From Mitosporidium daphniae (lineage: Eukaryota; Microsporidia), in NCBI RefSeq assembly GCF_000760515.2, contig NW_013546179.1, positions 1-28,393 of the forward strand: a DNA stretch of 28,393 bases, given 5' to 3'. The translations under genes and the position numbers were made by a program. Below the pieces are notes generated by a model. It made no database searches. It saw only the letters and a list, made by a program, of their open reading frames with translations, and was not told the DNA's origin. Shown here piece after piece: positions 5,871 through 8,600 of this stretch (positions are counted from its first letter, which is position 1; each line of letters starts with the position of its first letter).

Positions 5871-8600
5871 CTAGAAAAAAAAAGTGCGTGAGCTACTGTT
5901 TTGAGTTCCGCCACGGGAGTCTACGATGGATCTGGTAAACGAGGAGAATCGGTTGCCAATAAAAACATGTGATAGCGAGCAAATTTGTTGATCCACCAAA
6001 GCCCAAATGTTGGTGTCAAGAAGCCCCAGCAGGGTGACCACAGAAAGCGGGCGTACTGGGGGAATCGTCATGTGTGAAAATAAAATGGACTTTAGCAGAT
6101 AGGTAATTTGGACGTTAAAGGTAGCATTAAGCGCGGCCCTATCAACCAACTTGGATTGGAGAAGAGAGAGCGACACCATGGAATACTTGCGATCCCTGTT
6201 GACGAAGTTCATAAAGTTGGGGCCAAAGACAGCATTGGTGGAAATGTAGAGAGGTATCTTTCGCCCTGAATGGTCCCCAAAAGAGGTAGAAACCGAAGCC
6301 AGCCTCCGGCGAATTATGTTTGGAGTTTGCCAACAGCTGTTCCAAAACGGACTACGCGCACGGATTCGATGGTCAAATTTTGAACTGGCCGTGTAGTAGT
6401 TGAAATCTTTAGTACACTTTCCGAAATAGTCTCCCCGACGCAAATGAATGGCAATAAATTGGCGATGCAAAGAAGCTTCGGCAATCAGAAGGGCGGTCAG
6501 TCTTTTGATTTCGGGACGCGGAATCAGATAGGATCGAATGCTGGCGTACTTGTGCGACATAAAAAAGTCTTTATATTGGAGCTGTGGATAGGTCACTTCA
6601 GTTCCAAAGTTGTAGAACTGGAACATATTGCCGAGCAGCAAAAACTGCGATGCATTATACAGTGTGGAATAGCTGTCCAAAAAACCGGATTTTGACGAGT
6701 TGTGGCCTGGACTCTCGTCTACATATGCAAGTGAGGGGAGGAAAAGAACATCGTGATAATATTCAAGAGTTTGGTTGGGCGAAATATTAATGCTATTGAA
6801 GGCAGAACAAGCGTGAATCGTTCCTAAAAGGGACCTGATTGTGTTTCTATAAGACGACCAGACGATTTTAAGCGGCCTGGTGCTTTGCTGCTTCTTGATG
6901 TATGCGGAAAAGGCCAATGTTTCAAGAATGTTGGAAAAGTTGTATTCATCGATGACAGAACAAATGGGGTTTTCATTGAAACGATCCGAGTCAAAGTAAA
7001 TGCCGAATGGGTTCCACCGAAACTTGGAAACCTCAAATAGAGCCAGGTTGGCGGATCGCTCCTTTTTGTAGCCGATTTTGGGCAAAGGCAGGATTCTGTT
7101 CAGCTTCTGTGCAATGGCACATGCAGACATCAGCCCCTGGACCTGGTTATTTAGCTGCTCCCACGGGGCAAAGAGCAAAAATTTAAGCTTATCCTTTTGG
7201 AAATCAAGAGCCACCTGCAATAGCGATAATATGGACGGTATGTGGACAACAACATCTCGCCTACGGTACATTTCCTTTGAGGAGACGCTTTCCCAATTGA
7301 TGACGTCAAAAATCCCGTTGCGGGTGGTGTACTTTTCCTGCCAAGAGAGGTACAAAGGAAATGGAGAAAGCCCCGGGCTTTGGCGCCCAGCTTGATGGTC
7401 TGGGACGCCCCCGATGATTTTGATAAGATTTTGGTAGATTGCCTTTTTGATGCCGGTGGGAAAGATCTCAATGACCGTTGCATTTGGCCGCATCCATAGC
7501 GAATGGATCATGCTAGCTCCATGAACAGCAATCAGGATGTCGGAATGGTAAGCCGTTGCTATCTGCTCCTCAATAGACAGGGTTTCCAGAGAAATCACAT
7601 TTATCTTACAAGGAAGGGCACGGAGGGCAGATATAAGTGCATCCAAATTGAGCATAGCTCTCGAGGCATTTTCGGGCCTTTTAATAAGCGTGATAACTGG
7701 AATAGAAGAGAGACGTCCGCTCCGATCTTTGTCGTCCATCAGGCTATTAAATATCAGCTCACGGGTCAGTTTGATTGCAGTGTTCCTTCTACCTATACGG
7801 CTTTCGGGATCGTTTTGCGCATTTTGGATGTTTGTAATTTTGAGCTCTGGAACTTTGAAATGATCGGAGGAGCCCAGAAGGAGGGTTCGGAAAACTCTTG
7901 AAGCCGGCAATTGGGAAGGAAACATCGGTTCGATCGAAAAGTCGGTCACCGATCTTAATATCTTCTCAAACGGAAGCTTGTCATCAAGCCGGTTTTTCCG
8001 AACGGTGTCTGCGCCTTGTAAAAGGTATTCGCTGTGGGCATAAAAGTACTTGAAGTGCGTGGGATTCGAAAAATTTGTCAGTTGAAGCTCCAAGGCAGAA
8101 AATACCGATGAAGCGGCCGAATAAAACACGCGCATAATATTTCTCCACAGGGGCATGCCAAGCAGAGAGGGTTCCTCGATCGCCACCATTTGACCCCCCA
8201 GCGCTTTGCTAAGCGAGTGGGGACTGTAGTGGATAAAAATGGGGATGAATATGCGTTCAATATCTTTATCGGTCTTCACAAACCTAGCAAGCTGAAGATG
8301 ATATGAAGTGGCATTAAAAACACCTGATGAGAAAGAAAGTGCATCAAACCATGCAATTGGAGACAAAAACCCAATGCCAAGTTTGATGGGCCTTGGCACC
8401 GTATCCAACGGGGATTGCAACAGCAAATGTAGGGATCCATTAGAAGCAGCAGATTGGTACAGATTGGTCAGTTTGCACGCACCAAACCACTCTAAGCAGC
8501 TGACTTTGGAAACAGCAATGCCATCCAATGGGTCAGAAAGAGCCTGGGCATCGCCAAGGACGAAACACAACAGCAAAACTGCGAAGCCATGGACTTTCAT
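5871..8600 (-). CDS. Secretory fusion of a GT61 (EOGT-like) glycosyltransferase and a protein O-fucosyltransferase domain
   Basis: A single exon of 909 residues. Residues 1-20 form a good signal peptide, so the enzyme should act in the ER/Golgi lumen; several N-glycosylation sequons are present. The N-terminal half (about 60-440) is a GT61/DUF563 domain of the EOGT/plant xylosyltransferase class: a VITLIKR strand near 302, then HGASMIHSLWM at 360-370 and VIEIFP at 376-381, the family's nucleotide-sugar motif. The C-terminal half (about 470-900) is a GDP-fucose protein O-fucosyltransferase domain: FAPWEQLNNQ 477-486, IHLRRGDY 718-725, and VDQQIC...FIGNRFSSFT...R at 869-896, resembling the POFUT1 C-terminal signature. 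No KDEL-type retention signal is visible; the protein ends in RTFFF. Both active-site signatures look intact. Donors and acceptors (UDP-sugar; GDP-fucose) are inferred from family. Confidence 0.9.
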   Translation of the reverse strand: MKVHGFAVLLLCFVLGDAQALSDPLDGIAVSKVSCLEWFGACKLTNLYQSAASNGSLHLLLQSPLDTVPRPIKLGIGFLSPIAWFDALSFSSGVFNATSYHLQLARFVKTDKDIERIFIPIFIHYSPHSLSKALGGQMVAIEEPSLLGMPLWRNIMRVFYSAASSVFSALELQLTNFSNPTHFKYFYAHSEYLLQGADTVRKNRLDDKLPFEKILRSVTDFSIEPMFPSQLPASRVFRTLLLGSSDHFKVPELKITNIQNAQNDPESRIGRRNTAIKLTRELIFNSLMDDKDRSGRLSSIPVITLIKRPENASRAMLNLDALISALRALPCKINVISLETLSIEEQIATAYHSDILIAVHGASMIHSLWMRPNATVIEIFPTGIKKAIYQNLIKIIGGVPDHQAGRQSPGLSPFPLYLSWQEKYTTRNGIFDVINWESVSSKEMYRRRDVVVHIPSILSLLQVALDFQKDKLKFLLFAPWEQLNNQVQGLMSACAIAQKLNRILPLPKIGYKKERSANLALFEVSKFRWNPFGIYFDSDRFNENPICSVIDEYNFSNILETLAFSAYIKKQQSTRPLKIVWSSYRNTIRSLLGTIHACSAFNSINISPNQTLEYYHDVLFLPSLAYVDESPGHNSSKSGFLDSYSTLYNASQFLLLGNMFQFYNFGTEVTYPQLQYKDFFMSHKYASIRSYLIPRPEIKRLTALLIAEASLHRQFIAIHLRRGDYFGKCTKDFNYYTASSKFDHRIRARSPFWNSCWQTPNIIRRRLASVSTSFGDHSGRKIPLYISTNAVFGPNFMNFVNRDRKYSMVSLSLLQSKLVDRAALNATFNVQITYLLKSILFSHMTIPPVRPLSVVTLLGLLDTNIWALVDQQICSLSHVFIGNRFSSFTRSIVDSRGGTQNSSSRTFFF

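Follow-up and report, generated by a model that had tools for sequence, protein, structure and literature searches.

What kind of enzyme results when a GT61 glycosyltransferase and a protein O-fucosyltransferase (O-FucT) share one reading frame? Such a frame lies in contig NW_013546179.1 of the microsporidian relative Mitosporidium daphniae, within the 28,393-nucleotide window that is the whole stretch of DNA analysed here; its source, the draft genome of 4.66 Mb in 147 contigs, was also the genome searched. The frame runs uninterrupted for 909 codons on the minus strand, starting with an ATG at 8600 and closed by a TAG at 5871; three codons before this ATG the same frame has a TAA stop. Both domains exceed their Pfam gathering cut-offs: PF04577 (GT61) scores 62.4 bits against 27 (E = 7e-17, residues 270–377) and PF10250 (O-FucT) 40.8 bits against 31.5 (E = 2.8e-10, residues 483–734). 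An earlier sequence-only reading had proposed a single-chain fusion of this kind together with a scan for the two domains, and the motifs it quoted are all present in the halves to which it assigned them (HGASMIH 360–366, VIEIFP 376–381, NNQ 484–486, HLRRGD 719–724 and FIGNRFSSF 880–888). We lean towards a real and old two-donor transferase of the secretory pathway, in which a POFUT-type half is joined to a GT61 half that uses a uridine diphosphate (UDP)-sugar and possibly extends the O-fucose placed by its own partner. The gene and its main parts are as follows.

5871..8600, minus strand: single-frame coding sequence of 909 residues, GT61–O-FucT fusion, M. daphniae MDAP_000185 (open reading frame, Pfam, protein-database match)
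8541..8600, minus strand: hydrophobic N-terminus, residues 1–20, probable signal peptide or anchor (helix 3–17 in the model and hydropathy)
7194..8519, minus strand: GT61 GT-B unit, residues 28–469
7167..7295, minus strand: junction, residues 436–478, GT61 C-terminal element and short linker (spacing and conserved residues)
5874..7193, minus strand: O-FucT GT-B unit, residues 470–909

The arrangement is not confined to this window. Searched against 5.8 billion proteins, the chain proved to be MDAP_000185, with a single difference (Leu231/Phe); the same search returned a 905-residue relative, 56% identical, that has both domains. The longest contig of the database cluster named MDAP_000185 is 1.02 Mb. 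A relative's C-terminal half, used as query, recovered 19 proteins, itself among them. A 15-sequence profile search, in which 7,988 candidates were scored, gave 46 matches: 26 with both Pfam domains, 12 with O-FucT only, six with GT61 only and two with GT4 and GT61, some of the single-domain matches being truncated gene models. Named carriers of both domains are Chytriomyces hyalinus (two proteins), Blyttiomyces, Cladochytrium replicatum, Irineochytrium, Lobulomyces, Phlyctochytrium and Quaeritorhiza (a partial model), as well as the aphelid Amoeboaphelidium and the green alga Picochlorum. The search for the same order in related genomes, another check put forward by the sequence-only reading, thus succeeded in the 56%-identical relative, in chytrids, in Amoeboaphelidium and in Picochlorum. 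Its link between the fusion and a compact parasite genome does not hold, and a parasite-specific invention is rejected, since the fusion also occurs in chytrids, in an aphelid and in a green alga. The Picochlorum copy (P0014, Picochlorum sp. BPE23) lies on a 2.3-Mb contig; horizontal transfer and deeper ancestry are both possible origins.

All conservation counts below refer to an alignment of 34 rows, hand-picked from the matches so that motifs of both halves were visible; in these chosen rows PF10250 and PF04577 each match 33 of 34 (E up to 0.001). Residues W436, K442 and R446 at the junction are each kept in 34/34 rows, and the spacing from R446 to P479 is 30–38 residues in 28 rows and 43–94 in the remaining six. 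At window positions 7257–7268 (residues 445–448), where the GT61 part ends, Mitosporidium and the relative P0002 read YRRR and HRKK against the family's WRNQ, and the Gln of this motif is replaced in these two rows only (2/34).

A structure model of the 909-residue chain (predicted local distance difference test, pLDDT, 83; predicted template-modelling score, pTM, 0.86 across both units) matches POMGNT2 over residues 28–469 and POFUT1/2 over about 460–909, and its GT61 half is predicted to adopt the GT-B fold of solved GT61 enzymes. When the window protein was searched as a single sequence against solved structures, only GT61 enzymes were found, weakly (best 3.8e-4, POMGNT2 first), none of the hits at E ≤ 10 being an O-fucosyltransferase; the O-FucT match therefore requires profiles or structure. 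Among the GT61 structures, EOGT gives the best match to the family profile (9wjk, 3.5e-25), ahead of POMGNT2 (7.8e-22), while the fold-match lists of the model contain POMGNT2 and not EOGT. At the N-terminus the predicted signal peptide is borne out as far as hydrophobicity goes, and a signal peptide or anchor is probable; a hydrophobic stretch (mean hydropathy at least 1.6) occurs within the first 80 residues in 21/34 rows, some of the other rows being truncated.

The GT61 half keeps the following sites, each placed by alignment.

8130..8141, minus strand: N154-I-M-R157, UDP-binding Asn kept, Arg at the position of the proposed catalytic His
7659..7679, minus strand: R308 and R314, equivalents of EOGT R372 and R377
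7563..7565, minus strand: Q346, equivalent of EOGT Q412
7503..7523, minus strand: HGASMIH 360–366, with H366 the equivalent of EOGT H432
7458..7469, minus strand: EIFP 378–381 of GT61

EOGT is the GT61 enzyme that adds O-GlcNAc specifically to epidermal growth factor (EGF) repeats, and POMGNT2 the one that adds beta-1,4-GlcNAc to O-mannose. In EOGT, UDP is reported to be contacted by N245, H248, R372, R377, Q412 and H432, the Asn-Arg-Arg set being common to POMGNT2 (PMC13123520). The last four residues were placed on the fusion by counting along the alignment to EOGT 9wjk, and N154 and R157 indirectly, by way of the other GT61 protein of this genome (L005): its N-T-M-H aligns with POMGNT2 N163 and H166, and profile comparison sets it on N154-I-M-R157. 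N154 is Asn and R157 is Arg in all 29 rows that reach these positions; R308 and R314 are kept in 33/33, Q346 in 33/34, H366 in 29/34, and HGA and E378 in 34/34. Because these residues are conserved and Arg157 is Arg in 29/29, the UDP contacts known from EOGT, the Asn-Arg-Arg constellation and the uridine contacts Q412 and H432 included, appear from the alignment to be retained except for the proposed catalytic His (EOGT H248, POMGNT2 H166), which is Arg here. The label "EOGT-like" given earlier is therefore apt in part: the profile is nearest EOGT and Q412 and H432 have equivalents, but POMGNT2 comes first by sequence and by fold, and the proposed catalytic His is replaced. The fusion also differs from EOGT in ending RTFFF, without the C-terminal HDEL signal for retention in the endoplasmic reticulum, and in being joined to O-FucT. 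From POMGNT2 it differs in having the Gln/His pair that POMGNT2 is reported to lack (PMC13123520). A POMGNT2-like gene also exists separately in M. daphniae. It encodes L005 (L005:553-2478, in the G000:C69:22086-22364 region), a clear single-domain relative of POMGNT2 (E = 4.8e-67 to 7e9j) and a hint that this microsporidian relative makes elaborated O-mannose glycans. NCBIfam gave no name to the fusion or to L005.

The O-FucT half was aligned by profile to CePOFUT1.

7143..7166, minus strand: PWEQLNNQ 479–486, with N485 corresponding to CePOFUT1 N43
6426..6446, minus strand: HLRRGDY 719–725, with R721 corresponding to R240, D724 to D244 and Y725 to W245
5937..5957, minus strand: GNRFSSF 882–888, with F888 corresponding to F357

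POFUT1 is the enzyme of family GT65. Its two critical residues, reported as N43 and R240 in CePOFUT1 (PMC3180450), are retained as N485 (34/34) and R721 (33/33); D724 and Y725 are each kept in 33/33 rows and F888 in 27/30. The fusion differs from POFUT1 in its extra N-terminal GT61 unit, in an identity of 13–20% in structure alignments, and at two positions, R40 being Gln482 (34/34) and D309 being Asn789 (33/33); in CePOFUT1, D309N reportedly left hydrolysis near wild type and R40A caused a slight loss (PMC3180450). Judged from these residues, the O-FucT half looks catalytically complete, and both donor sites look usable by alignment. The family profile favours POFUT1 (9.8e-15) over POFUT2 (8.5e-6), and the VIA-align structure comparison was tied between them. 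The genome also has another O-FucT gene, of a different type with a GFSNQ motif; it matched with equal score on two contigs (G000:C126:18200-18454 and C128:17961-18215), which may be duplicates or alleles of each other.

In the reading we prefer, the C-terminal half would transfer fucose from guanosine diphosphate (GDP)-fucose to Ser/Thr of a secreted protein in the lumen, and the N-terminal half would bind a UDP-sugar and transfer the sugar to the same acceptor, most likely onto the fucose just placed, to give a sugar-Fuc-O-Ser/Thr disaccharide; it would do so with Arg in place of the proposed catalytic His. There is a partial parallel in PgtA of Dictyostelium and Toxoplasma, reported to be a single chain with two transferase domains that adds two sugars in sequence to Skp1, one of them fucose (PMC6939170), whereas its families are GT2 and GT74 and it acts in the cytoplasm. 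In its most specific form, an early-diverging-fungal enzyme writing a new extended O-fucose glycan, with an Arg-type GT61 capping POFUT-placed fucose with a UDP-derived sugar, the proposal is tentative; if true, one chain would combine the roles that animals divide between POFUT1 and Fringe. No description of a GT61/O-FucT fusion was found in open-licence PMC text, in keeping with the earlier remark that no such enzyme is known to have been described, and the main text of a survey of fungal O-FucT proteins (PMC10481521) has no mention of GT61, Glyco_transf_61, DUF563, EOGT, fusion or Mitosporidium. The parts are known and the arrangement is apparently undescribed, conserved across early-diverging fungi, with the proposed GT61 catalytic position changed in every testable row. 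Zoosporic fungi, an aphelid and Mitosporidium share this conserved architecture, and in these organisms little is known of how secreted proteins are glycosylated; the His-to-Arg change offers a test of the mechanism proposed for GT61.

Copies that lack the motifs of one half bear on whether both halves work. Among the first 21 proteins, 13 lack the HGA motif yet have PWEQLNNQ, two of them (P0008 and P0015) without most of the N-terminal half; the group is mostly chytrid, and the named members, such as Rhizoclosmatium, Obelidium, Physocladia and Entophlyctis, are chytrids. Their N-terminal half is likely a decayed GT61. The metagenomic P0053 is their mirror image: of the GT61 residues it has N-x-x-R, both Arg (the first of them positioned by eye), the Gln and HGA...H, and its PWEQLNNQ and HLRRGD are changed beyond recognition, with FIGN..SSF still there. 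As motifs are lost in either direction, each half seems to be retained independently of the other, perhaps under selection of its own, and this speaks for some function of the Arg-type GT61 site. These copies are natural single-domain controls.

A possible, though less probable, alternative is that the GT61 half is a non-catalytic module that binds a UDP-sugar or positions the acceptor, and that the O-FucT half alone transfers sugar. Arg stands at the proposed catalytic His in 29/29 testable rows, alanine at that His is reported to lower EOGT activity markedly (PMC13123520), and the HGA-less copies persist with their O-FucT motifs. However, the UDP pocket is near-invariant across divergent proteins and is retained in P0053 despite its altered O-FucT motifs, and some inverting transferases need no protein base, POFUT1 having been proposed to use the donor phosphate (PMC3180450).

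Several observations weigh against a sequential two-donor transferase. The sequential step is drawn by analogy, the His-to-Arg change would take away the sole base proposed for GT61, and the copies without one half's motifs indicate that coupling is not always needed. GDP-fucose supply is half supported. The gene for GDP-mannose 4,6-dehydratase (GMD) is present (G000:C44:317-1488) in three frame pieces, a pattern that introns could explain, with 50–72% identity to E. coli gmd, and GDP-L-fucose synthase was not found in the draft genome with the E. coli fcl query, a search that had no control, although the gmd query did retrieve GMD. Of six matches in a PF01370 scan, two were weak and two fell on the GMD gene; the remaining two lie on one gene that by eye looks like a UDP-glucose 4-epimerase. 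One TPT-family transporter gene, in two pieces, was also found. Acceptor searches of the draft genome, run without a positive control, gave no EGF match with PF00008 and PF07645 at E up to 1, and for TSR (PF00090) one sub-threshold match (E = 0.42) with internal stops.

Trees of the two halves also disagree in places. They were built on 48 of 58 proteins (four left out by length and six without the motif used for cutting) and on 32 chosen rows plus the genome's own POMGNT2-like protein. Both half-trees recover Mitosporidium and P0002 with P0047, and the group P0004/18/19/20/22/23; they conflict on Picochlorum, P0024 and P0034, and this too counts against the preferred reading. The O-FucT tree places Picochlorum and P0024 among the HGA-less copies though both have HGA, and the GT61 tree places them elsewhere. 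The trees contain several long branches, and the program warned that grouping Mitosporidium with P0047 or P0021, and Picochlorum with P0017, may be spurious. A single old fusion whose halves were inherited together would be the simplest account.

That the halves modify separate sites on EGF repeats, as animal EOGT and POFUT1 do, is unlikely. The profile affinities to EOGT and POFUT1 given above would suit it; the EGF result, obtained without a positive control, fails to support the earlier idea of EGF repeats as the common acceptor. An artefact in which misassembly or read-through joined two genes is rejected as very improbable, since the identical order recurs in the M. daphniae record, the 56%-identical relative, named chytrids, Amoeboaphelidium and the alga, with a similar junction.

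Among the eight frames scanned, the other window frames with clear families are an ABC1 kinase, RNB, SRP68, an STI1/HOP-like TPR protein and a G-patch protein, all ordinary eukaryotic genes. The two GT4 + GT61 matches of the profile search, P0057 and P0058 (1,418 and 1,272 residues), have an N-terminal HLRRGDYR motif and are probably bacterial.
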